Shown: positions 7,167-36,177 of the stretch, in pieces | How positions within the stretch are numbered: the first letter of the stretch is position 1 | Layout: each line of letters opens with the position of its first letter | From: Candidatus Aquidulcis sp. | GTDB taxonomy: Bacteria > Chloroflexota > Anaerolineae > Anaerolineales > UBA4823 | Reading direction: 5' to 3' | DNA: 37,779 nt | Assembly (NCBI GenBank): GCA_020723385.1 | Contig: DYIZ01000049.1 | Coordinates: 1-37,779 of the forward strand | Made by a program: the position numbers and the translations under genes | Notes under the pieces: model-generated | Databases searched by the model: none | The model's input: only the letters and a program-made list of their open reading frames with translations | What the model was told of the DNA's origin: nothing

Positions 7167-8597
7167 TTATGGCTGGTGTTTTTTGCGAAAGCTCAACCCG
7201 AGCACGATCAACCCTGCAACAGCCACCAGGCTCAAGATGATCCCAGACAGGACTGGGCGGTTTGGCTGATCGTCTGGTGCAGCGGTGACGGCGACGGTGG
7301 GGCTGGCGGTGGGTCGGGGTGTGCGCGTCACGGTCGGCGGTGGTGTTGTGCGGGTAATTGTGGCGGTTGTCGTGGGCGGGCGCTGCGTGGGGGTGATTGT
7401 GGCGGGTGGTGTGACACGTAGCAGCAGCTTTTGATCCGGCCGGATGATCGAAGCGCTGTTGAGATTATTCCAAGCCATCAGATCATTGACAGTGACATTG
7501 TACAGGCTGGCAATCCAGGTCAGCGTCTCGCCGCTCTGCACGATATGATAATAATTGCCGTCGCTGGCCGGGGTCAGTTTCTCGATGGGCGTCAGCGGAC
7601 GGGGGGTGGCGCTGGGCGTCACCTTGCCGGGCGAGATGATCAGCGTTTGCCCGATCTGCAGCGGCCAATCCAATTGCCAGCCGTTCAAGGCTAAGATCGA
7701 ATCCACCGATACCTCGTAAGCCAGGGCGATCGTGGTCAAAGTCTGGTAAGCCTGCACCGTGTGGACAATTTGCCCATCTGCATCGGGCGTGCTGGCGATG
7801 ACCATGCCCACCGGGGTCGGCGTGGCGTAGCCCTCGGTGTTGCTGCTGGGGATGAACAGACGCTGCCCAATTTGCAGCCCCGTGTCTCGTGAAATGTTGT
7901 TCCAGACCTCCAGATCCTGGATGGTGACCTGGTAGGAGATCGCTATTGACCATAGAGACTGGCCGGCTTGCACGATATGGTAAATTTTCCCATCCGCATC
8001 GGGCGTGGCGATCTGCACCGGCACGATGATCTGCGAGACCGGCATTGTGCCAGCCGGGGCGGCTGTCCCCTCGGGGTAGGTATAAGGCCCGCATGAGTGC
8101 GAAGACGTGTAGGCAGCCTGTAAGACATAATAAGTCGAGCCATTCGCCGCCTGGGCAACCCCCGCTCCCACATGGCAATAAGCCGGGACTGTCGCCGGGC
8201 GCATGTGATCGGGGTCGGACCAGACCTGCATGATCGCCTCGAGGGTCATGTGGCCGACCGCGAAATTCTCGGTGGCCCACACAGTAGCGCCGCCGCCATA
8301 GCCCGCCGCCGCCAGCCGGCCGCGCACATCGCCGATATGCCAGGACATCTGGTTGGCTGCCATGATGTCGGCGGTGTTTTGAGCGACCGCGTTGACGATC
8401 GGGTCTTCGATCAGGGCTGACAGGCCGTTCGAGACGCGCAGCGTGTTCATGGCGAGGATCAAATCATAAGCAGTCACTCCGCTCGATTGGGCCAGGTTCG
8501 ACCCAGGCGAGGCCGCGCCCGCTTTTTCCGCCGGATGCAGAGACCCAGCCAGCACAATGAGGATCACAAACCAGGGGAATACACTTTTTAGTCTCAT
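7167..8597 (-). CDS. Secreted CAP-domain protein with three LysM repeats and C-terminal membrane anchor
   Basis: With the ATG at 8597 the product is 476 residues and begins with a clear signal peptide (MRLKSVFPWFVILIVLAGS). The frame opens further upstream only through a TTG. A CAP/SCP-like domain follows (about residues 40-165), including ATENFAVGHMTLEAIMQVWSD and YCHVGAGVAQ. Three LysM motifs come next, each opening with H-(I/T)-V-Q (YHIVQAGQSLWSIA, VHTVQAYQTLTTIA, YHIVQSGETLTWIA) and ending near a W-N-N or L-N-G turn and an IGQ-like strand. A Thr/Pro linker leads to a terminal hydrophobic helix and the basic tail FRKKHQP. LysM domains bind glycan chains such as peptidoglycan, so the protein is probably anchored at the cell surface. 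The role of bacterial CAP domains is poorly defined. A monocistronic unit is likely. Confidence 0.9.
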   Translation of the reverse strand: MRLKSVFPWFVILIVLAGSLHPAEKAGAASPGSNLAQSSGVTAYDLILAMNTLRVSNGLSALIEDPIVNAVAQNTADIMAANQMSWHIGDVRGRLAAAGYGGGATVWATENFAVGHMTLEAIMQVWSDPDHMRPATVPAYCHVGAGVAQAANGSTYYVLQAAYTSSHSCGPYTYPEGTAAPAGTMPVSQIIVPVQIATPDADGKIYHIVQAGQSLWSIAISYQVTIQDLEVWNNISRDTGLQIGQRLFIPSSNTEGYATPTPVGMVIASTPDADGQIVHTVQAYQTLTTIALAYEVSVDSILALNGWQLDWPLQIGQTLIISPGKVTPSATPRPLTPIEKLTPASDGNYYHIVQSGETLTWIASLYNVTVNDLMAWNNLNSASIIRPDQKLLLRVTPPATITPTQRPPTTTATITRTTPPPTVTRTPRPTASPTVAVTAAPDDQPNRPVLSGIILSLVAVAGLIVLGLSFRKKHQP

Positions 8598-24357: not shown

Positions 24358-27168
24358 ATGACACTTCCTCTGTTCGCGGTGACATTCGGCGAGATGCTCA
24401 AATATCTGCGGCGGAGAGCGCACCTGACCCAACGCGATCTCTCGATTGCAGTCGGTTATACCGAAGGCCATATCTGCAGGATGGAGAAAAACGAGCGCTT
24501 GCCTGATCTGACAACGGTTGCGGCGCGCTTCATCCCTGCGCTTGATCTGGAAGATGAGCCTGGCTTATTGGAACGATTCCTTCAACTGGCAGCGCAAGCT
24601 GAGGGCGGGCGGCAGTTGACGAGTGTGACGATCAATCAGGTGACCATTGAGCATTATGTCGAACGGGAGATTGGCGCTCTCGAGCAGGTTCCATCCCGCT
24701 TGGCGCATTACGTTACCCGTTTGGCCCTGGTGCGTCGGGTGAACCGAATCTTATCCGAAGAGCGGGGAGTGATATTGTGTGGCATGCCGGGAACCGGGAA
24801 GACGGCATTGGCTGCTGCAATCGCCCGCGAAAATAAATCGGATATGATATTCTGGCACACATTCACAAGCGGGGTGAACACCAGCCCTGAGGTCATAATC
24901 AGGCAGTTAGCTTTATTTTTCTTGGGCCACGGGCAGACGCAAGTCAGGCCGCTGGTCGAGCGACACAGCGAGGTTCGCCCCATACCGCTGGATCAACAGA
25001 TGATGCTCATCCGGCAGGCCTTGATGCGAACGCCTGCCTTGCTGTGTTTCGACGATGCTCATTTGTTGCTCGAAGAGGAAGACAGCTTATCGCTGCTCCG
25101 CCACCTGAGCACAACGATGTCAGCATCTCTTCTGCTGACCACTCGCCAGGATTTGCCGCTGCCGGTGAGACATGTCAAGCTGGGGGGATTAGAGCGGGGA
25201 GAGGCGCGTGAGTTGGTTGAGCGATTGGGTATCAGCCTCGAAACGAGTGTATTGGATAGTCTCATGACCAGGACTGGCTGCAACCCGATGCTGCTCCGGC
25301 TGGCCGTGGGGCAATTGCTCGATACCCAGGTTGATGCTGATGCCTTTGTCGAAAGCATTGCGACACAACCGCAAATGGCCTCGTATTTACTGAGTGCAGT
25401 GGTGCACGGTCTGTCGCCCGAGACGCTCTGGTTGGTTGAGCTGATATCGGTCTTCCGACAACCAATAAATCTTTATGATGAAATGCTTGGTGAGCTGGTT
25501 GCGGAGGCCAATCAACACTGTATTCTCGATGATGCTATCAATGAACTGCAAAGTCGTCACTTGATTGACGATATGCACCGGGCTATGTTGCACCCGTTGG
25601 TGCGGGATCATCTTTATATGACGTTGTCAGCGGATGTTCCACAGAAGAAACGATATCATCGCATCGCCGCTGTGTGGCTTGAGCGAGCGATTGGCGATAT
25701 CGTCGAAGCAGCCTATCATTGGGTGCGCGCCGGGGATGTGGAGCAAGCGGCTGAGATTATAAGCGATCAGAGTGAGATGCTATTCGACCGAGGGCAAGCG
25801 CAAGCTGTAGTCCAAATCGTGGATGAGGCGTTAGAGCAATTACGGCGCAAGCGCAGCGATACGAAGAACTTGCGTCGCAGCTTGCTGACCGCCCGCGGCG
25901 ATTTGTTACGCGGCACCTCCCGTGCCGCAGAGGCCGAGACCAATTACCGTGAAGCTCTGGCATTGGCGCAACACCTCCCATCGGTTCGAGCGCAGATCGT
26001 GCGCAGCCTGGCGCTCATCCTTGGCCAGCGCAGCCAGTCTGCAGAAGGGCTGCGCCTGTGCCAATCTGCATTCGCTGACCTCTCGGAGGGGGATACCGTG
26101 CTTCGGGCGCGGTTAGCCTCGATCCAATGCCGGTTACACCTGGCGTTGTCACAGTACAACGAGGCTGAGAAAATTGCCCAAATGGCCCTCGATCTATCCG
26201 ATCAATTCGCGGAGTTCTTGCCACAATTAGCTGATGATGTTCGATCTCGCGCTGAGCGTACCTTGGGTTGGATCAGTTATACCCGCCATCCGCAAGGGAC
26301 CGAGGCGTTGACCCATATCCGCAGGGCATTGGAATGTGCTCGGCGCGCCAATCTGCGGGTTGTCGAAAATGCGGCATTGTCTAACATGGCCACTATCCTC
26401 ACTGAGCGGGGTGATCTGGATCAGGCGCAGCAAGTTTATCTGGAAGCGCTCAAGGGGGTTGAAGCCCTGGGTGATTTGTACAATAAAGCAGCTATTTTGC
26501 ACAACTTGGGTATTCTTCACAACAACCGTGAGGAATTCGACGTTGCTCTCGCCTACTATGAACAGGCCGGCCAAATCGAACGGGAAGTCGGCGATTGGGA
26601 AGGTTTGCTTAGCTCGGAGGAAGCGCGTGCCGGGATTTTCCTGTCGTTGGGTAAATTAAACGAAGCACGCGCTGTGCTCGATGCAGCACTGGCGGAAGAT
26701 CGAGGGTCGTCCGACACCTGGACACTGGGTACCTGTTTGTGTTTATTGGTGGAGGTTCAATTATTGCAAGGTGAATTGGAAACCGCACGGTCAACCGCGC
26801 AACGCTTGCTGGCGCTGCCAGGTATTCAGGATAACGCCCGTATTCGTGCTTGGGCGTTGAGCAATCTCGGTCTGGTGCAGATCGTCAGCGGTGAATTGGC
26901 GACTGCGCAAATCACGATGGCTGGCCCAGCCCCGGAGGATCTAGGGATTGAGTTAACTTTACGGTGGCAATTGGTTCGGGCCGCGGTTGCCCTGGCGTGT
27001 GGCCGCCTGGCTGAGGCGCAGGCGTTGGCTCATACGGTGATTGAGGCCGCAGAACGCCAAAATCATCCCCAGGTTACCCTTCCAGCAGAACGACTGATTG
27101 CCAATCCGGGGCTACCCCTGACCGACTATATTCGACTAATCTTGATGGGCGATCCAAATCGAGAATAG
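24358..27168 (+). CDS. XRE-type HTH, STAND ATPase and TPR multidomain regulator
   Basis: A 936-residue cytoplasmic protein. An N-terminal XRE/Cro-type helix-turn-helix (about 8-65) shows MLKYLRRRAHLTQRDLSIAV and ICRMEKNERLPDL. A STAND-type NTPase domain has Walker A GMPGTGKTA (142-150) and Walker B LLCFDDAHLL (228 on). The C-terminal half (about 480-930) is helical repeats of TPR type, for example ALEGVEAL-like units, NKAAILHNLGILHNNREEFDVALAYYEQAG and YNEAEKIAQMALDLSD. Such proteins act as ligand- or partner-gated transcription switches. It starts 39 nt after the kinase-FGE gene with AAGGG 6 nt before the ATG, so the two are probably one transcript and may form a signalling pair (inference). 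The ligand and targets are unknown. Confidence 0.88.
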   Translation: MTLPLFAVTFGEMLKYLRRRAHLTQRDLSIAVGYTEGHICRMEKNERLPDLTTVAARFIPALDLEDEPGLLERFLQLAAQAEGGRQLTSVTINQVTIEHYVEREIGALEQVPSRLAHYVTRLALVRRVNRILSEERGVILCGMPGTGKTALAAAIARENKSDMIFWHTFTSGVNTSPEVIIRQLALFFLGHGQTQVRPLVERHSEVRPIPLDQQMMLIRQALMRTPALLCFDDAHLLLEEEDSLSLLRHLSTTMSASLLLTTRQDLPLPVRHVKLGGLERGEARELVERLGISLETSVLDSLMTRTGCNPMLLRLAVGQLLDTQVDADAFVESIATQPQMASYLLSAVVHGLSPETLWLVELISVFRQPINLYDEMLGELVAEANQHCILDDAINELQSRHLIDDMHRAMLHPLVRDHLYMTLSADVPQKKRYHRIAAVWLERAIGDIVEAAYHWVRAGDVEQAAEIISDQSEMLFDRGQAQAVVQIVDEALEQLRRKRSDTKNLRRSLLTARGDLLRGTSRAAEAETNYREALALAQHLPSVRAQIVRSLALILGQRSQSAEGLRLCQSAFADLSEGDTVLRARLASIQCRLHLALSQYNEAEKIAQMALDLSDQFAEFLPQLADDVRSRAERTLGWISYTRHPQGTEALTHIRRALECARRANLRVVENAALSNMATILTERGDLDQAQQVYLEALKGVEALGDLYNKAAILHNLGILHNNREEFDVALAYYEQAGQIEREVGDWEGLLSSEEARAGIFLSLGKLNEARAVLDAALAEDRGSSDTWTLGTCLCLLVEVQLLQGELETARSTAQRLLALPGIQDNARIRAWALSNLGLVQIVSGELATAQITMAGPAPEDLGIELTLRWQLVRAAVALACGRLAEAQALAHTVIEAAERQNHPQVTLPAERLIANPGLPLTDYIRLILMGDPNRE

Positions 27169-27232: not shown

Positions 27233-30200
27233 CTATCTCATGATGATCGGCAAAAAGACCTGGTGTAGTAAATAGACTGTGAATGACACCAGGTTGCTGC
27301 GACCGCCGCCAGGGAGTGGGTTGGTGACCGAGATGCTGTTCAAGGTAGGCGGCCATAACTGGTCGGATGTACTGATTGTTACCTGCAAGTGCGTGCTGTC
27401 AATAAATTGTGTTGGACGGTCGCTGCCATTCCATTGAACGGTCGCGCCTTCCACAAAGTTCATACCCGTGATGGTGATGGTGAAGGGTGAGCTATTGACG
27501 CGCGGTGATAGTACATAAGCGGGAGAGATTCCTGTGATCGTAGGCGCCGGGTTCCATCCTGGAGGGCAGACAAACAGACTGGCTGTATTGGAGTCGGCGT
27601 CGGTGCCATTGCTGACCTTTATGCTCAGGGTGCCGGCTTGCGCCAGCAAATCCTCGGTGATCATCAGACGCAAGTGGGTGCTGCTGACGAACTGAACATT
27701 CTGCGCTTCCACGTTGTTTACCCATACCTCTGAGGCGGCCTGGAAATTTGCGCCATAGATATCCATCATGAAGGATTCCGCGCCTGCTTTTGCTCCAACA
27801 GGGGTGATAAAGCTGATGGATGGAATGGGCTTGGGGGAAACGGCGAAGGATTGGTCCGCGGCCAGCGGAGAAAACACTTCGAAAACCAGGTAGTTGAAAG
27901 ATTTGCCGCCGCCGGGCGCAGGATTTACGACGCGGATCGAATGCTCGGCGGGGTAATTCAACCAGCCGGCCGGGATGGTAGTCTCTACCTCGGTTTCGTT
28001 CACGTATGTCGTTTCCAGAGGAACCTGGTCGAAAGTCACTTGCGCTCCAGGGATGAAGCCCGCGCCTTTGACAGTGATCGTTTGGCTTTCGTCAGTTTCC
28101 ATGGATGATGCAGGTAGTAAAGCGTAGAGAGTGGGTTGAGGGTTGGCTGTCTGGAAAACTGCTACCGCGTTATCTGCCGCGCCTGTTGCGATGACGAAGT
28201 TGCCATCAGGAGACACAGCCACGTAAACGGTGTGACCGAGGGCTGGAACCCCGGATGTGTCGCGCGGATATTCCTGGTTGAGCCATATCAAATGGGTTTT
28301 GGTATCCCGTTTGAATTCCACCAGCGTTTCATCGGTGGTAGCGACAACATAGACGTGCTTTCCATCGGGGCTGACAGCCACCCCTCGCGCCCCTGCCAGC
28401 CCGCTGACCCCGAAGACGCCTTCAAGGAAGGCGTAGGGCAAATGCACCTCGCCCGTTGCTGGGTCGCGGATGAAGGTGATGAGAGAGCCATCAACAGCGC
28501 CGGTAACGTAAACATTGGCGCCATCCGGGCTAACCGCCACGCCAAAGGCGCCGCGCAGCCCTACCATTGGGAAACAGAGGGGGCATGTCGCTGTATCCTG
28601 GGTATCCCATTGCCAACGCGTTTGGATGGGCGTCAGCTCGCCCGTCAGCAGATTCCGTTGGTAGACTGCCAGGGTTCCGGTAGTATCTGGATCATCGGTA
28701 TAAACCGTTACATACAGATTCTTGCCGTCAGGGCTGATAGCAATGCTGACCGGGTCATTCAACGGGTGCGCACCGTCTGATGTGGCGGTGACTGCACCAA
28801 CAAACGAAAATTTGGTAGGCGCGGATTCATCATGCTCGAAAATAGCAATACTATCGCTGTGAGAGCCTGCAACATAGACAAACCGGCCATCAGGGCTGAA
28901 GTCAACATCCAGGGGGTACTCCATCCCGCTGACGCCGCCAGATCCATTTTGAGCAGAACCCAGGTAGGTCAGGCTTCCACTGCCGCTATCCCGCTGATAG
29001 AAAACGATTGCATTGCTGACTGCGCCGGTGACGAGGACGTAACGGTCATCTGGACTTACCGCGATCCCATGCGTGTTGTTCAAGCTGGAATGGGAATTAA
29101 ACCCAGCATACTCATAGCCATCTATGCCGTCGTCCAAGACGCCTTTCTTAAGCGTGATAACCTGACCACCTATCGTATGATTGCCGACCACATAGGCATT
29201 TTGACCATCTGAGCTGAAGGCCACGCCAAATGGATTGGTCAAATCGTTAGTCAGGTCTTGGGTATGCAAGTTTTGAGTATTGGCCAGATCAGCAAGACTG
29301 GGCTGTGCGCCGGCGCAGTTGAGGTTGAAAGCGACCGTTGGTTGTGAAGGGTCGTTAGTTGTCAGAGTCAACTGGCCGGTCAGCAAGCCGATTTGAGAGG
29401 GTGTGCAGGTCGGCGTAACGATTTGCTGGTTGCCTGGGGTAATGCTGAAAGGCGTTGGCGGGAAATTCGGCGATATATCGCTGGCGCCAGACCAGGTGAC
29501 GGACTCAATGGTGAGCGAGGCCTTACCGATGTTGATAATGGTCAAGTCGCTCGCGGCTATATCTCCAACCGTTGCCACACCAAACTCGAGTGAGGCTGGC
29601 AAAGCAGGGAGTGAGGCAAATACCGGCTGGGGGGTCGGCGTCCCTTCGCAGAGCAGAGAATAGGTTGCCTCGGGTTTGTCGGTATCGTTGCTCGAAAAGC
29701 TCAATTGACTTTCCAGTAGCCCTACGCTGGTCGGATGACAGGATAAGGTAATCACCTTTTCTTGGGCTGGCTCTATCTCGATTGGGAAGGCGTCGGATAA
29801 ATTGAAGTGGGATGTGTCCCCCAGGTTGGGGTCGCTGATGGTGAGTTTAAAAGTCCCCGTATTTTTGACAGTAAAACTGGTGGTAAGATCGGTATTGACC
29901 TCAACGCTGCCAAAGTTGAGCGGGCCAGGGGGCAGGGGCATAGCGTCGAAGTGAGGGGCGTACGGAGGCACTTCGACTGCCCCAACATCACACGCCTGGC
30001 TGCCGGTGTGATTGGCATCCTTGGGGCGTTTGGTCCCGGTGGCATCCTCGTTGTGGACAGCCGGATCGTTGCAGATGGCAGAGTCTCCATAATCTACCGC
30101 GGGACTGTCGTGCGCCGGCATGTGGGTGGTAAGCACCGGCAGACCGCCGCCATTGAAAGCCAGCCCGCCTAATTTAGGATCTACCCCTTGCTGGTCTGAA

Positions 30201-31651
30201 GCTGCTGATACACAGCTTGTATCCCTGGCAATATTATGTCCCAGTGAGATCACACCATCCATGGAGCAGAGCGGCGACAACAGGCCATCAATGATGGTAT
30301 TGCCGATGCGAACCTCGGTCGAATCATTGGAGAGAATGGCGCTGGCTAAAATGGGAGCAGCTATATTGTTTTCAAATGTGCTGTTAAGGATCGTCGCGGT
30401 CGTTGACCCGCTGAGATGGAGCGCGCCGCCTTCTACAGTGGCTATATTGGCGCTAAAAGTTGTGTTGGCAATCGAGACGGCGCCATTGGAAGCAGCAATT
30501 GCCCCGCCGTTTCCGCCCTGGGCAAAATTCGATAAAAAGGTGCTGGAGGCGATTTTCAGCCGCCCTAAATTCTTGATTGCGCCGCCATCCATCGCAGAAC
30601 CAGTGTCGCCTGCCAGATTGCCATCGAACAATGTGCTGGTGATTGCCGCAGTCGCGTTGATGTTATTGACCAACGCGCCGCCCTGGCCCTGCAGGCCGAT
30701 GTTGGCGTTGAAGGCGCTGCGCTGGATCTCAAGGATACCGGCAGAGTTGAAAACTGCTCCGCCTCCCAGGTTGTTCGGGTTGCCTCCCACGCTGTTGCCA
30801 GTGAAAATGGAATCGTTGATCGAAGCCTTGCCCTCGTTCTTTTCGAGATAGATCGCCCCGCCAGCAATCGCCTGGTTGCCCGTGAAGGTCGAAGCCTCGC
30901 TTTTGAACGATCCGACGCCGGACATATAGACAGCGCCGCCCAGCCCTGGCGATTCATTTTCTCCGGTGGCGCGGTTGCTGATGAAGGATGTGCCGATGAG
31001 ACTCAGCTCACCATTGGAATCAATCGCCCCGCCGGTGCTTTCGGCCACGTTATTGGTGAAAAACGAGCCGATCACGGTGATCGAAGCGTGGTTGACATCA
31101 TGGATGGCCGGCCCCGAGCCGGTCGTGTAGGAGTTTTTCAGCGATACGGCTACCAGGGTCAGCTTTGCATTCGTTCCCGTCTGGAAAATGTGGGTATCCT
31201 TGCCTGGGCTGCCCTGGATGGCAATCGGGCCAACGATCACCGTTTCACCGTAAATAAACGGGAGATCCATGCCTGGGGGAATTGTGATCGTGCTGGCAGC
31301 CGTGTTCAGGCTGAAGCCGATGATATTCATGGCGTTGGCTTTTGCTTTACAATCCATATAATCTGGCGAACCGCCGCTATTGGCCTGGAAGACAGCTTGC
31401 AGCGCTTCGTAAAGGTCACACTTGCCATCCAACTCGCCAGAAATGGTAGGCGTTTCCACGTAGATATTCGGCAGGGGTAAATCGAAGTCGGGCGCATTGA
31501 CCGCCATCGGGTGGCCTTCGTTCGCCGAGGGGGCAAGCGACGCCTGGCTGGACGCAAACGCCCCTGGCTGTGAGGGGATTGCCATGACCAACAGGGTCAG
31601 AATGATCACGGCTGTTTTGCACTTCTTTTGGATCGAGCTTGATCTAAACAT
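27233..31651 (-). CDS. Large secreted surface protein: beta-helix repeats, choice-of-anchor D, beta-propeller and IPT/TIG domains
   Basis: A 1472-residue exported protein with a signal peptide (KTAVIILTLLVMAIP). After a segment like the CSLREAI motif (CDLYEALQAVFQAN) comes a right-handed beta-helix region of Pmp-type repeats (about 160-470, many F-x-x-N and GGAI motifs). Two choice-of-anchor D domains follow (about 590-790, LNFGSVEVN and LEFGVATVG). Then comes a lactonase-like propeller (about 800-1180, repeated VAVSPDGKHVYV-type strands), and finally IPT/TIG domains (about 1180-1460, ITGISPAYVLS). The C terminus is VFLPIIMR, like those of two other exoproteins nearby. AAGGAG lies 5 nt before the ATG. 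It is the last gene of a three-gene unit. An adhesion or matrix role is likely but not shown. Confidence 0.9.
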   Translation of the reverse strand: MFRSSSIQKKCKTAVIILTLLVMAIPSQPGAFASSQASLAPSANEGHPMAVNAPDFDLPLPNIYVETPTISGELDGKCDLYEALQAVFQANSGGSPDYMDCKAKANAMNIIGFSLNTAASTITIPPGMDLPFIYGETVIVGPIAIQGSPGKDTHIFQTGTNAKLTLVAVSLKNSYTTGSGPAIHDVNHASITVIGSFFTNNVAESTGGAIDSNGELSLIGTSFISNRATGENESPGLGGAVYMSGVGSFKSEASTFTGNQAIAGGAIYLEKNEGKASINDSIFTGNSVGGNPNNLGGGAVFNSAGILEIQRSAFNANIGLQGQGGALVNNINATAAITSTLFDGNLAGDTGSAMDGGAIKNLGRLKIASSTFLSNFAQGGNGGAIAASNGAVSIANTTFSANIATVEGGALHLSGSTTATILNSTFENNIAAPILASAILSNDSTEVRIGNTIIDGLLSPLCSMDGVISLGHNIARDTSCVSAASDQQGVDPKLGGLAFNGGGLPVLTTHMPAHDSPAVDYGDSAICNDPAVHNEDATGTKRPKDANHTGSQACDVGAVEVPPYAPHFDAMPLPPGPLNFGSVEVNTDLTTSFTVKNTGTFKLTISDPNLGDTSHFNLSDAFPIEIEPAQEKVITLSCHPTSVGLLESQLSFSSNDTDKPEATYSLLCEGTPTPQPVFASLPALPASLEFGVATVGDIAASDLTIINIGKASLTIESVTWSGASDISPNFPPTPFSITPGNQQIVTPTCTPSQIGLLTGQLTLTTNDPSQPTVAFNLNCAGAQPSLADLANTQNLHTQDLTNDLTNPFGVAFSSDGQNAYVVGNHTIGGQVITLKKGVLDDGIDGYEYAGFNSHSSLNNTHGIAVSPDDRYVLVTGAVSNAIVFYQRDSGSGSLTYLGSAQNGSGGVSGMEYPLDVDFSPDGRFVYVAGSHSDSIAIFEHDESAPTKFSFVGAVTATSDGAHPLNDPVSIAISPDGKNLYVTVYTDDPDTTGTLAVYQRNLLTGELTPIQTRWQWDTQDTATCPLCFPMVGLRGAFGVAVSPDGANVYVTGAVDGSLITFIRDPATGEVHLPYAFLEGVFGVSGLAGARGVAVSPDGKHVYVVATTDETLVEFKRDTKTHLIWLNQEYPRDTSGVPALGHTVYVAVSPDGNFVIATGAADNAVAVFQTANPQPTLYALLPASSMETDESQTITVKGAGFIPGAQVTFDQVPLETTYVNETEVETTIPAGWLNYPAEHSIRVVNPAPGGGKSFNYLVFEVFSPLAADQSFAVSPKPIPSISFITPVGAKAGAESFMMDIYGANFQAASEVWVNNVEAQNVQFVSSTHLRLMITEDLLAQAGTLSIKVSNGTDADSNTASLFVCPPGWNPAPTITGISPAYVLSPRVNSSPFTITITGMNFVEGATVQWNGSDRPTQFIDSTHLQVTISTSDQLWPPTLNSISVTNPLPGGGRSNLVSFTVYLLHQVFLPIIMR

Positions 31652-31688
31652 ACTGTCTCCTTAATTTCTGAAAAACGGTCCGCGATTC

Positions 31689-31982
31689 TCAGCGCACAAC
31701 CAGCGGTAAAAAGATTTCCATCAGCAGCTTGATCCCGCTCGGCCAGAAACCTCCAGCAAGCGAATAGTCACCGCCGCTCGATGCGCCAGCATCGGCCTGT
31801 CCTATGGTTCCGCCGAGCGAGTAGTCTCCGCCGGCGCTGAAGGTCGCCCCGCCGGCGTCTATCGTGTACCAGGTGAGATCGTATTCGCCTCCCGCCTGGG
31901 ATGCGGCGGCTGGATGGTTTAACATGGATGTGAGCAGGAGCGCAAGCAGCGCCAATACGATAATCTTGCGAGCGCCCATCAT
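31689..31982 (-). CDS. Small secreted protein with twin GGDYSL repeats and C-terminal LPLVVR tail
   Basis: A 97-residue exported protein. The signal peptide is ARKIIVLALLALLLTSMLNHPAAA. The mature part has two imperfect repeats, SAGGDYSLGGTIGQADAG and SSGGDYSLAGGFWPSG, a pattern I know from small exported proteins of Chloroflexota and planctomycetes with no known function. The end is MEIFLPLVVR. The start ATG at 31982 overlaps the stop of the upstream gene (TAATG) and is preceded by GGGAGGGG; the next codon is also ATG. The frame extends to 32054 upstream but without sense. It sits between the repeat-head protein and the giant surface protein in one operon. Confidence 0.85.
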   Translation of the reverse strand: MMGARKIIVLALLALLLTSMLNHPAAASQAGGEYDLTWYTIDAGGATFSAGGDYSLGGTIGQADAGASSGGDYSLAGGFWPSGIKLLMEIFLPLVVR

Positions 31983-33685
31983 TATGCCCCTCCCTTCTGT
32001 CGCCACAGCCCAACGCCGCCCAGCAGCGCGGTTGCGCCGAGTAGATTGAACCAATTGAAGGGCGTTGAGGTGCTGGCCGGCGTTTGTTTCTGTTCCAATT
32101 GAGCCACGCGCGCCTCCAAATCGGATATTTGCTGGTCTTTCTCCTGCACGATTTGATACAGCCCCTGGATTGAGTTGAGCGCAACGCTATCCAGATCCAT
32201 GCTGCTAAAACCTTTTTGGTCGCCGTTACTCAAGCCGAAAGCAGCATTGAAATCCTCCGCGATGGGGCTGAAATGTTTTACGCTCGGATCAGCCTCGTTT
32301 GGCGTCCATTGCATAATGGGCACCGTTGCCAGTTGGTCGAGAGTTGTGCGTCCATTCAATTGGATGGAGTTGTCCTTCGACCTGTCATTATTATCATAGC
32401 AATACCATCCGTTTGAAGTTTTATGTAAATGGCACCCCACTGGTAAATGGCCCTCTCCATCAATATCAACGCTTAAAAAGACGCCGCCGGTTGCACGCAC
32501 CTCGAATGTATTTTCTAAATATGTTGTGAAATCAAAAGGGTTGTCGTCAGCGAAGATGAAACTTCCGTCATGGTTGGCTTTGGCGCGAAAACCTGCCGCG
32601 AAGCTGTATGCTCCGGAGGCTGTGTTATAGGCGCCCCCTGGCACGGTGGCGCGGTAGCCGCTGGCCTCGTTAGCATAGCCGCCGCCGACCACGCTTGACG
32701 CATTGGTAGCCCAGTTGTCATAACCACCCCCTACCGTCGCATAGGCGCCGCTGGCAAAATTCTTCTGCCCGCCCGTTATTGCAGCATAGTCGCCGGTTGA
32801 ATAGTTGTAATGTCCGCCGCCAACGACTGACTGGCCTCCGCTGGCCTGGTTCATGTTACCTCCGCCGACCGTATCGTAGTTTTGGCTGGCGAGGTTATCC
32901 GAACCGCCCGCTACCGTTGCGCCCCCGCCGATGGCGGTGTTTTCCCAACCGCCTCCAACAACCGATGAGCCGCCGCTGGCTTCATTGCTGTAACCGCCAG
33001 AGACGGTGTCATAATCTTTATTGTCATTCTCTTTACCGGTGGTATTCCCATTGCCTCCGCCCACAACGCCGTAATAACCAAAAGCAGAGTTGTTCAAACC
33101 CCCACCGATAGTAGCATAATCGGCTTTAACCTGATTGGGGTAGCTTGAATTGCCGCCCCCGCTGATCGTGGAGCCTAATACCCCCGTTGGAATGAGGTTG
33201 CCCCAATATCCGCCGATGATGTTGGGGCTGACGCTATTTTGTTGGGTGTACAGCCCAGGAAGCGACAGGGCCAACGGGGCAGGCGTCAGCGGCTGGAGGG
33301 GCGCCAGCGAGGTGTAGCTCCCGCTTCCCGCCGGGCAGCGCACGGCAATGCCTAACCAGCTCGCCGCGCCGGTAAAAGCGCCTTTTCCAAAATCAATCTG
33401 CACGGTAAACAGGCCATCGGTAACAGCCACATTGCTGGCGTTCTGTGTGCTGCCGATTTGCGTCCCTGAGCTTTCCGCGTCGAATAAGCTGAATTGGAAA
33501 TCGCAGGTAGCGTTTACAGGGGCGCCATTGCTATTAAGCTGGCCCTGGTATGTAAAGGCTGTACCCACATTCGATGCGAGCGCGTTCGAGGGGAGATCAT
33601 TCGCTGGATGCGCCTGCGCTGCGCCAACTGCCAACATTGGAGTGAGCAGAATTGATATAACGATGACTAAGATTTTGTTTTTCAT
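31982..33685 (-). CDS. Surface protein with YadA/haemagglutinin-head-like 15-residue repeats and C-terminal membrane anchor
   Basis: A 567-residue exported protein. It has a signal peptide (KILVIVISILLTPMLAVGAAQA), then an N-terminal domain of about 110 residues (GTAFTYQGQLNSNGAPVNATCDF). Residues about 190-375 carry 15-residue repeats of the pattern x-x-V-V/A-G-G-G-x-x-N-x-A-S-G-x, as in trimeric autotransporter heads, which fold as left-handed beta-rolls. Near the C terminus a coiled coil (QGLYQIVQEKDQQISDLEARVAQLEQKQ) follows a stretch reminiscent of the S74-type intramolecular chaperone tail. The protein ends in a hydrophobic helix with basic tail (LWRQKGGA). Trimerisation is plausible. 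It is the first gene of a three-gene surface operon. A role in attachment is inferred. Confidence 0.85.
   Translation of the reverse strand: MKNKILVIVISILLTPMLAVGAAQAHPANDLPSNALASNVGTAFTYQGQLNSNGAPVNATCDFQFSLFDAESSGTQIGSTQNASNVAVTDGLFTVQIDFGKGAFTGAASWLGIAVRCPAGSGSYTSLAPLQPLTPAPLALSLPGLYTQQNSVSPNIIGGYWGNLIPTGVLGSTISGGGNSSYPNQVKADYATIGGGLNNSAFGYYGVVGGGNGNTTGKENDNKDYDTVSGGYSNEASGGSSVVGGGWENTAIGGGATVAGGSDNLASQNYDTVGGGNMNQASGGQSVVGGGHYNYSTGDYAAITGGQKNFASGAYATVGGGYDNWATNASSVVGGGYANEASGYRATVPGGAYNTASGAYSFAAGFRAKANHDGSFIFADDNPFDFTTYLENTFEVRATGGVFLSVDIDGEGHLPVGCHLHKTSNGWYCYDNNDRSKDNSIQLNGRTTLDQLATVPIMQWTPNEADPSVKHFSPIAEDFNAAFGLSNGDQKGFSSMDLDSVALNSIQGLYQIVQEKDQQISDLEARVAQLEQKQTPASTSTPFNWFNLLGATALLGGVGLWRQKGGA
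32560..33118 (-). repeat. Tandem 45-bp coding repeats (15-residue head repeats)
   Basis: About twelve degenerate 45-bp units encode the GGG-x-x-N-x-A-S-G head repeats of the surface protein. Recurrent DNA such as ccgccgccgaccac and gctggc is visible in successive units. One unit is lengthened (the segment with KENDNKD). Confidence 0.8.
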
Positions 33686-33755
33686 TCTCTTTTTCCTATA
33701 GTTCTCTGGATGATAACTGCTTTTTGTGCGAGGATTTTGAGTCTGCTAAAGAAAC

Positions 33756-34283
33756 TCATGGGAAACTGAGGGTCGAAACCACTTGCAGCACAACTGCCCG
33801 ACTTTTCTCTGTTGTATCGTTTGTATACACGAAGCCTCCAAAGCCGATATTTCCTAGCGGTTCGCCAGCCAAACTCCACAATTCTGTTCCATCTTCTCTT
33901 TGAGTATGACAGGCGGGCAAGGTTCCTTTGGCTACGGCTATCTGTTGATAGCCTTCTGGACACGCTCCGCCAAACCCGGTTCCCCATTGCAACTCTACTG
34001 CTCCTTCTGGGCCTTTCAAAACGATATGATGCCTTTGACCTCCGGCTTCGTCGGGCAAGTCTTCTTCTTGCCAATTCGAAGGGTATTGTATGCTGAACCC
34101 AGCCTGCGCATTCGCATAAGTTTTCCAGGTTGTTTCGGTGACTGACGAAAGCGTTGGCGTTGAACTGACTGCTGTGCTGGGAGGCGGCGTCACTGAGGGG
34201 GATGGGGACTGTGTATTGCCTGCAAGCGAATTGCAGGACGCCAGTAGGATTGCAAAGATGAGGATGAGGGTTTGCTTTTTCAT
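33756..34283 (-). CDS. Lipoprotein of unknown function with PsbP-like segment
   Basis: With the ATG at 34283 (AAGGA 6 nt upstream) the product has 175 residues and begins MKKQTLILIFAILLASC, a lipoprotein signal with lipobox LASC. A Ser/Thr/Pro-rich spacer of about 35 residues follows. Then comes a globular part with TYANAQAGFSIQYPSNWQEE, a motif typical of PsbP-like or DUF1795-type domains, and LKGPEGAVELQWGTGFGG. The longer frame to 34454 places the signal peptide internally and is rejected. The function is unknown; it is probably displayed on the outer face of the membrane. Its neighbours are other exported proteins on the same strand. Confidence 0.82.
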   Translation of the reverse strand: MKKQTLILIFAILLASCNSLAGNTQSPSPSVTPPPSTAVSSTPTLSSVTETTWKTYANAQAGFSIQYPSNWQEEDLPDEAGGQRHHIVLKGPEGAVELQWGTGFGGACPEGYQQIAVAKGTLPACHTQREDGTELWSLAGEPLGNIGFGGFVYTNDTTEKSRAVVLQVVSTLSFP

Positions 34284-34315
34284 AGTGATTCCTTCAGAAT
34301 TGTTTTTGGTATCAG

Positions 34316-34338
34316 CCGCCCAACGCTGTGTCGGGCGG
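34316..34338. promoter_or_regulatory. Stem-loop in the leader region of the lipoprotein gene
   Basis: CCGCCC (34316-34321) pairs with GGGCGG (34333-34338) around an 11-nt loop. On the minus strand it lies downstream of the SBBP gene and 33 nt upstream of the lipoprotein ATG. It lacks a T-run in that direction, so its role (weak terminator or leader hairpin) is open. Confidence 0.3.
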
Positions 34339-34506
34339 TTTCTTTGATGCAGACGAACCTTCTCGCGAGCATGCTCTAATGCCATCTTTTGGTTGGTTTT
34401 TTGAAAGGTTGTACAGGATGACTCTAGCGAAAAGTATCCCCTGAAATTTGACATTTCTTGTCAATTCGTGACTTCATCCCGTCGAAAGAGAAGAACTCAA
34501 CACAAT

Positions 34507-36177
34507 TTATCGCTTAACCAACGGGAGATAGAGACGCTCGTTCAAGGGCGCTGGCGTCACGGTTGCCGTGGGAGTCGGCGTGCCCACGGGTATGTCCGGC
34601 AGGAGCTTGAGCAGGAAGGCGTCCGATTGACCATTGGATGTAAGGTAGTCCCCATTTCCAGGGTCGAAGTCAACGGTTCCGGCAAATTTACCTTGTGCGT
34701 AGATAGTATCCACCCCATCCAAAACGACGCTGCTTGTATCGTCGCCGCCCCCGCCCCAGGTTCTGACCCAATCGAAGTTCCCGTTCACATCCAACAGGCT
34801 GATGAAGGCGTCGTGTAGACCGTTCGAGACATGGTTATTGGTTTGGGTACCAGGGTCGAAGTCAACTGTGTCGAAGAACCAGCCCGCAATATAGATACGG
34901 TCAAGCTCATCTATCGCCAGTCCCATGGGCTGATCGTCGCCGCTCCCGCCCCAGGTCTTGGCCCATTGAAAAGTTCCATCGGGGCTGAACTTGCTGAGAA
35001 ACACATCCTGGCCGCCGTTGGTTGAAAACGTCTGAGTAATGAGCGGGTCAGGATCGAAGTCGCAATCCATGCTTACGAACCGGCCGGCTACATAGATACT
35101 ATTTGTTTCATCTGCTTTTACAAGTCCCGTGGCGTCTTCAGTACCTTGCCCGCCCCAGGTTTTGACCCACTGGAAGTCGCCGCTTGAGTTGAATTTGCTG
35201 AGGAATACATCCACGATAATGCCGGAATCATGGGCGGGGTGGCCCAGCCCCCCGCTCCCGCCGTCCGGATCGAAATTGATATCCTGGCTGGCGTACATGC
35301 CGGCTACGTACAGGTTGCCCCAGGCGTCAACCGCTATGCCCGGCCCATCGTCATAACCTTCGCCCCCCCAGGTCTTTGCCCAAATATGATTGCCGTTCAA
35401 ATCGAACTTGCTGATGAAAGAGTCGAAGAAAATGATACCTTCGGCAGGGACATGATTTTGGTGCGGATCAGGGTTTGACGGATCCCATGGGTTGAAGTCA
35501 GTTTCGTCGCCCGAAAAATCTCCGACCACATATAAATAATTACCGTCCACAGCCACAGTATAGCCTTCGGCCCCAAAAGATGCTCTGCCGGGAACGGGCG
35601 CTGGCCCCCAAGCGCGTACCCATTGGAAGGTTCCATCCGGGCTGAACTTGCTGAGATAGATATTATTCTCGCTCGGATAATTGGAAGTATGCGTGGCAGT
35701 GATGACCGGGTCTGGGTTGAAGTCAACGGTCTCACGGTAAGGCCCAACGACATAGGCGTTGTCCGAGTCATCTACTCCCACGCCATAAGCTGTGTCCCTG
35801 GCGATCCCGCCCCAGGCTTTGGCCCAGAGGAGATTCCCGCTCGAGTCGAACTTGCTGAGAAAGGCATCAATCGAGTCATTATTCGATGCAAGCGGGTAAG
35901 CAATCGCTGGATCCGGGTCGAAATCTACCGCGCCGACAAACTGCCCGACCACGTACAGATTCCCCGCGCTATCCACTGCAACAGCATTGACGCTATCCGC
36001 TGCGTTCCCGCCCCAGGTTCTTGCCCAGCTAAAAACCGGCGCTGCCGAACCAGTTGCCTGTAAACTCGCCGAACTCACCGGATACAGCCCGCCTGCTGAG
36101 AAAAAAGAACTGGCGAAAAATGCCGCCCCCACCATCCCGAAAAACAGTGCCCCTACAGAAAATATCGTCCGATTCAT
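34507..36177 (-). CDS. Secreted SBBP-repeat beta-propeller protein with C-terminal LPLVKR tail
   Basis: With the ATG at 36177 (GGAGG 5 nt upstream) the product has 556 residues. It starts with an export signal (MNRTIFSVGALFFGMVGAAFF); the frame further upstream encodes no signal. The body is seven units of about 60-75 residues of the SBBP type. Each ends in a W-(A/V)-(K/R)-(T/A)-W-G strand, followed by VDxxGNxYVxGxF and a DFDPDP-like turn, then DxFLSKF. Seven units fit one seven-bladed propeller. The DFDPDP loops could bind calcium (inference). The C terminus is TPTPTATVTPAPLNERLYLPLVKR split as a Thr/Pro linker plus LYLPLVKR. The function is unknown, probably protein contact at the cell surface. 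Confidence 0.88.
   Translation of the reverse strand: MNRTIFSVGALFFGMVGAAFFASSFFSAGGLYPVSSASLQATGSAAPVFSWARTWGGNAADSVNAVAVDSAGNLYVVGQFVGAVDFDPDPAIAYPLASNNDSIDAFLSKFDSSGNLLWAKAWGGIARDTAYGVGVDDSDNAYVVGPYRETVDFNPDPVITATHTSNYPSENNIYLSKFSPDGTFQWVRAWGPAPVPGRASFGAEGYTVAVDGNYLYVVGDFSGDETDFNPWDPSNPDPHQNHVPAEGIIFFDSFISKFDLNGNHIWAKTWGGEGYDDGPGIAVDAWGNLYVAGMYASQDINFDPDGGSGGLGHPAHDSGIIVDVFLSKFNSSGDFQWVKTWGGQGTEDATGLVKADETNSIYVAGRFVSMDCDFDPDPLITQTFSTNGGQDVFLSKFSPDGTFQWAKTWGGSGDDQPMGLAIDELDRIYIAGWFFDTVDFDPGTQTNNHVSNGLHDAFISLLDVNGNFDWVRTWGGGGDDTSSVVLDGVDTIYAQGKFAGTVDFDPGNGDYLTSNGQSDAFLLKLLPDIPVGTPTPTATVTPAPLNERLYLPLVKR

Follow-up and report, generated by a model that had tools for sequence, protein, structure and literature searches.

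Can a handful of residues at the very end of otherwise unrelated exported proteins serve as a signal for their destination? The question is raised by a 37,779-nucleotide stretch of Candidatus Aquidulcis sp. (Chloroflexota; contig DYIZ01000049.1), hereafter the window, in which three predicted exoproteins end in VFLPIIMR, IFLPLVVR and LYLPLVKR. The original prediction took these endings for a recognition tag. Reading of the open reading frames (ORFs) confirmed all three tails, each with Arg as last residue and a stop codon directly after it; the N termini are signal-peptide-like, as had been claimed, and the bodies are indeed unrelated, namely a lactonase propeller with TIG and choice-of-anchor D, Q and Z domains, a 97-residue protein with a Gly-rich domain, and an SBBP beta-propeller. 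From the comparisons reported here we consider it likely that the tail is a short, helix-free C-terminal localisation tag, for sorting or retention, of Sec-exported Chloroflexota proteins. The tails and the proteins that bear them are as follows.

27236..27259, minus strand: tail VFLPIIMR of the 1472-aa exoprotein (ORF reading)
27233..31651, minus strand: exoprotein of 1472 aa with signal peptide, beta-helix-like N-terminal part, choice-of-anchor Q, D and Z, lactonase propeller, TIG domains and tail (ORF and family searches)
31692..31715, minus strand: tail IFLPLVVR of the 97-aa exoprotein (ORF, genome pattern scan and homologues)
31689..31982, minus strand: small exoprotein of 97 aa with signal peptide, Gly-rich domain up to GGFW, unconserved spacer and tail (ORF and homologues)
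34510..34533, minus strand: tail LYLPLVKR of the 556-aa exoprotein (ORF and genome pattern scan)
34534..34590, minus strand: Pro/Thr-rich linker PVGTPTPTATVTPAPLNER between propeller and tail (sequence; no strand and low confidence in the last 30 residues of the model)
34507..36177, minus strand: exoprotein of 556 aa with signal peptide, SBBP beta-propeller, linker and tail (ORF, family searches and model)

Occurrence and consensus of the tail

The genome that contains the window (6.43 Mb, 239 contigs) was scanned at the DNA level for [FY]LPxxxR followed by a stop codon, which gave 50 matches against 1 for a reversed-pattern control. The codon versions of 57 sampled tails were all different, so the tail is conserved and selected as a peptide. 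Enrichment among signal-peptide proteins, set beforehand as the test of the original prediction, was found in a 0.72 Mb sample of this genome: the tail is carried by 45 of 194 signal-peptide ORFs and by 3 of 334 other ORFs, the sample being made of regions around tail matches and hence centred on tails, while the contrast between the two classes is independent of that choice. Of these three other ORFs at least one (L099) begins much like a signal peptide and was overlooked by the heuristic. Over all ORFs of the sample the pattern [IVL][YF]LP[LIV][VI]x[RK] occurs 53 times, 46 of them exactly at the C terminus and 50 no more than 5 residues from the end.

The 63 tails of this genome refine the consensus to [YFHW]-[RKQ]-[IVL]-[YF]-L-P-[ILV]-[VI]-x-[R>K], with an aromatic residue or His in 35, Arg, Lys or Gln in 32, I/V/L in 58, Y/F in 62, L in 58 and P in all 63, followed by I/L/V in 60, V/I in 59, any residue (often Arg), and finally R in 60 or K in 3. 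The chain stops exactly at the basic residue in 58 of them and runs on for 1-5 residues in the other 5. The claim that Arg is the last residue therefore holds for the three window tails, while elsewhere a minority has 1-5 extra residues or Lys instead. The Lys-ending version matches 9 times in this genome and 31 times in 63 genomes, always in genomes with Arg tails except for two matches in G034, whose genus-mate G102 has tails. Genome G128, of the same class, has the variant tails YLPIGYR, YLPFGYRFKR, WLPVGWR and YLPFSARLK, often behind Pro/Thr linkers, which suggests lineage-specific drift of the signal. Two residues beyond Pro the variant (loci L101-L107 and L124-L133) has Gly or Ser, and G128 also encodes an exosortase. 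One C terminus of Candidatus Viridilinea mediisalina (L272) carries two tandem tails, KVYLPLVMREGGGRQHVYLPFVQR.

Across 251 genomes of the phylum the strict Arg form gave 148 matches against 9 control matches and was confined to 29 genomes from 12 of 75 families; matches in tail-negative genomes are spurious ORFs. Together with the spurious nature of these matches, the reversed-pattern controls of both scans speak against a chance origin of the tail. Sequence identities place this phylum as Chloroflexota: locus L159 (G061) matches L234, from Chloroflexales bacterium ZM16-3, at 100% over 8 kb, and L297 (G015) is the same as L261, which is likewise filed in Chloroflexota. A scan for VYLPxVxR-stop in about 85,000 named species found at least 117 stretches. 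Among the matches listed, 100 belong to Chloroflexota (Chloroflexaceae, Roseiflexus, Herpetosiphonaceae, Anaerolineales, Thermoflexales, Caldilineaceae, Ardenticatenaceae and others) and 17 do not, the latter being mostly chance, such as the ends of non-exported Amycolatopsis proteins, or misbinning-like contigs. Four loci labelled Elioraea, Pseudomonadota or Gracilibacteria but holding Chloroflexota-type tail proteins (L232, L216, L250 and L265) are probably misbinned metagenome contigs; the protein end in L232 is identical to those of the Roseiflexus loci L180 and L240. As far as sequence can establish it, the tail is essentially restricted to Chloroflexota in these scans, and the original impression that such endings recur in Chloroflexota exoproteins was correct.

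Independence from fold and exchange with helix anchors

The family of the small exoprotein at 31689-31982 is kept across Chloroflexota. In 14 homologues from several lineages of the phylum the domain stops at a GGFW-type motif and gives way to an unconserved spacer of variable length, after which LP-[LIV]-[VI]-x-R is again nearly invariant. A Pro/Thr-rich linker precedes the tail in 34507-36177 and in loci L084 and L087. An AlphaFold2 model of 34507-36177 places propeller-like strands at residues 49-525 and leaves the last 30 residues strand-free and at low confidence; this single-sequence model is modest (mean predicted local distance difference test score, pLDDT, 52.6) and serves as supporting evidence only, and the model of the small protein (mean pLDDT 49.7) was too poor and was not used. 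Its position behind Pro/Thr linkers or unconserved spacers means that the tail does not form the closing strand of a fold, one of the two outcomes by which the original prediction could have failed.

The strongest evidence for a function comes from paralogues that appear to have swapped anchors. The tail protein L072:9754-10170 (138 aa, ending in NDDNPIYLPIIRR) is 72% identical over 127 residues to its neighbour L072:10609-11589, whose C terminus has, in place of the tail, a Pro/Thr linker followed by a hydrophobic helix and RRMTR, and a third relative, L072:59-508, runs straight into a helix. Likewise, two tandem giants in L061, 79% identical over 1085 residues and with related terminal domains, end one in FQLFLPVIVR and the other in a helix anchor. 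The tail itself involves no transmembrane helix: none of 52 tail proteins has a C-terminal helix (none by the criterion used in the last 45 residues) and one has a lipobox, against 8 with a helix and 19 with a lipobox among 97 non-tail exoproteins. On sequence grounds the tail is established as an exoprotein-specific, fold-independent C-terminal peptide that stands in for helix anchors, and it is probably an undescribed address label for cell-surface proteins.

The cargo agrees in kind with that of sorting signals. NCBIfam searches of 60 tail proteins returned choice-of-anchor Q (7), T (5), J (4) and B (2), CSLREA, and families whose names refer to dependence on rhombosortase, myxosortase or LPXTG, some of these matches falling below curated cut-offs; choice-of-anchor D and Z are present in 27233-31651, and many of the cargo bodies are beta-rich. 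Choice-of-anchor families are those in which one body is joined to various sorting signals. Neither NCBIfam nor Pfam gave a model for the tail itself among the window proteins and the 25 most frequent families of the 60 tail proteins, and a literature search found nothing on the tail sequences or on a Chloroflexota sorting signal.

Two other exoproteins of the window had been described as lacking the tail, and this was borne out, both ending in a hydrophobic segment followed by basic residues.

31982..33685, minus strand: exoprotein without tail, with hydrophobic C-terminal segment (ORF, Pfam and neighbourhoods)
7167..8597, minus strand: CAP/LysM exoprotein with C-terminal helix anchor and no tail, for comparison (ORF and Pfam)

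The stop codon of 31982-33685 and the start of the small tail protein gene overlap (at 31982). Across Chloroflexota, a small Gly-rich tail protein recurrently adjoins a larger exoprotein that shares its N-terminal domain (AFTYQGQL-type) with 31982-33685, as seen in the window (31689-33685) and in L067, L079, L081, L083, L092, L212, L259 and L276. An S74-type chaperone domain, suspected at first in 31982-33685, was unsupported by Pfam.

Candidate machinery and competing explanations

Enzymes were profiled over guessed families in about 31 tail-bearing and 32 tail-free genomes. Sortase (PF04203) is present in 56 of the 63 genomes, with or without tails, and had no match in G168 (97% complete) despite the tail exoproteins of that genome; it was rejected as processor since its presence does not track the tail. 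Exosortase (PF09721) was dismissed because it occurs in only 5 of the 63 genomes, with none in G000. Omp85/BamA matched in 0 of 29 tail-bearing genomes, against 7 of 14 for the working control, which speaks against an outer membrane and hence against routes by the beta-barrel assembly machinery (BAM) or the type IX secretion system (T9SS); an outer-membrane signal was discarded on this ground. SprA likewise had no match in the 29 genomes, and no control genome gave a match either. The neighbourhood search revealed no recurrent membrane enzyme adjoining tail genes.

Peptidase_C25 occurs in 23 of 29 strict tail-positive genomes and in 12 of 222 negative ones (Fisher 1.4e-18; family-level p = 3e-6), p-values that overstate the association as related genomes are counted as independent, and most of the 12 have relaxed or variant tails. 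DUF11, a control exoprotein family, is found in 52 of 63 genomes with a copy number that rises with tails, so an exoprotein domain alone is not enough to produce a C25-type profile. E-values against the T9SS sortase PorU reach down to 7e-92 and mark the C25 proteins as its relatives; the best score, 308 bits, lies below the NCBIfam equivalog cut-off of 420 bits. Most bear the tail themselves, often in degenerate form. G037, G150, G153 and G015, of which the last two are less complete assemblies, have genuine tail exoproteins but no match to C25 or to PorU-like proteins. As a general enzyme the C25 peptidase was rejected, since several tail-positive genomes do not have it and it is usually a tail protein in its own right; it is at least a frequent cargo, and a part as sorting enzyme is possible, a general one unlikely.

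Several arrangements were seen around these genes. Clusters at L072:5092-13817, L165:6574-13999 and L166:5998-11664 combine a long tailed PorU-like C25 protein, which in L072 and L165 also has a propeptide, with small exoproteins and a short C25 protein that lacks the tail, in bacteria without an Omp85 match. In family f34 a C25 gene directly adjoins a sortase gene (G102:C1:380058-382420, G034:C1:280944-283306 and G070:C241:19403-21790). Large regulators (helix-turn-helix or BTAD, with an AAA/NB-ARC-type ATPase and tetratricopeptide repeats) often lie near tail genes, no more than 3 genes away in 14 of 20 sampled cases, for example at 24358-27168 in the window and at L060:4672-7995, L063:11481-14591, L078:12731-15811 and L079:5461-9057; four loci have a related small ORF between a divergent regulator and the tail gene.

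If the tail is a localisation tag, the protein would first be exported by Sec, and a surface component would then read the tail in extended form and either retain the protein or attach it covalently. The original proposal of a recognition tag is partly upheld, by the enrichment on exoproteins, the C-terminal position, the independence from fold, the exchange with helix anchors and the sorting-signal cargo families. Several points weigh against it: a partner enzyme or receptor was not found among the families and neighbourhoods searched, a close relative of the same order (G005) lives without the tail, which is on none of its 36 exoprotein-like ORFs, and signal peptides were called by a simple heuristic; moreover, the tail may act in release, stability or folding. 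That it governs stability or quality control of exported proteins rather than localisation, for example through recognition by, or protection from, a tail-reading protease, we regard as unlikely. Such a tail would be C-terminal, short and common to many exoproteins, as this one is, and some proteases are known to read the C-terminal tails of proteins, but the swap with membrane anchors in paralogues and the near exclusion of lipobox and helix anchors fit localisation better, and close relatives export proteins without it. Far less credible still is that the tail is merely due to chance or forms the closing strand of common beta domains: it is strand-like and many cargo bodies are beta-rich, yet the bodies are unrelated, linkers and variable spacers intervene, the modelled propeller ends before it, and the controls yielded 1 match against 50 and 9 against 148.

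The localisation tag could take two more specific forms. A non-covalent docking strand that is never cleaved and that extends a sheet, or fits into a groove, of a protein of the wall, sheath or S-layer is a tentative but reasonable candidate, in keeping with the alternating hydrophobic and polar, strand-like sequence, the lack of an obvious cleavage site, the usual absence of anything after Arg and a distribution that no known transpeptidase family fits (sortase and exosortase profiles); no receptor for it was found, and the extra residues after some tails sit poorly with it. The other form is decidedly improbable. In it a secreted PorU-like C25 cysteine peptidase of a one-membrane cell would take the tail as its substrate signal and act as a sortase-like transpeptidase, in effect a T9SS-type sorting enzyme without a T9SS. 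Such a model would account for the co-occurrence, the likeness to PorU and the C25 clusters, and T9SS signals share dependence on the extreme C terminus, tolerance of extension and a Lys in the last strand, PorU carrying such a signal too (PMC11285876). Set against this are the four genomes with genuine tails and no such peptidase, the PorU scores under the family cut-off, and the tails on most C25 proteins, by which co-occurrence is expected even of mere cargo.

With a sequence rule that picks out as many as about 60 exoproteins in a genome, much of the surface proteome becomes predictable, and the tail offers a concrete query for finding its machinery by phylogenetic profiling or pull-down. 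To our knowledge, the surface display of proteins in Chloroflexota is poorly known. It is conceivable, though we put it at somewhat under an even chance, that the tail represents a new kind of C-terminal sorting signal, a helix-free decapeptide read by undiscovered and possibly enzymatic machinery in one-membrane bacteria, and with it a Chloroflexota surface-display route distinct from sortase, exosortase/CTERM and T9SS. If the tail is truly a sorting signal, such signals need no membrane helix.

Comparison with known sorting systems

The CTERM signals (PEP-CTERM/exosortase, GlyGly-CTERM/rhombosortase, MYXO-CTERM/myxosortase and PGF-CTERM/archaeosortase) resemble the tail in being short C-terminal motifs on dozens of unrelated signal-peptide proteins per genome, in their overlapping cargo families and in their basic C-terminal end. 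They are tripartite, consisting of a motif, a transmembrane helix and a basic cluster (PMC11980579). The tail shares the first of these, in that many exported proteins end in the same short motif, but no helix follows it, as the chain stops with the basic residue in 58 of 63 tails and the 52 tail proteins are without a C-terminal helix; exosortase, moreover, is nearly absent, and no curated CTERM model appeared among the matches of the window proteins or the 25 most frequent families of the 60 tail proteins. The sortase LPXTG signal is likewise basic at its end and places a Leu-Pro core close to the C terminus of surface proteins, whereas the tail has neither T-G nor helix and does not follow the presence of sortase. 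Since it has no helix, the tail is neither a CTERM nor an LPXTG signal.

In T9SS signals, one of which is on PorU, function depends on the extreme C terminus, an extension is tolerated and the last strand has a conserved Lys (PMC11285876). The tail is similar in the first two respects and in its conserved basic residue, and PorU-like C25 proteins both co-occur with it and bear it. The T9SS C-terminal domain, in contrast, is a beta-sandwich of 67-108 residues that works with an outer membrane, while the tail has about 10 residues behind linkers, in genomes without an Omp85 match; having no folded domain (of 67 residues or more), it is not a T9SS C-terminal domain. The outer-membrane beta-signal read by BAM is also a C-terminal strand-like peptide, but the tail ends in Arg or Lys and its cargo proteins are not barrels, with Omp85 in 0 of 29 genomes. 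Being like a sorting signal and yet without the defining architecture of the known ones, the tail is best placed as a variant of C-terminal sorting signals that stands outside these families.

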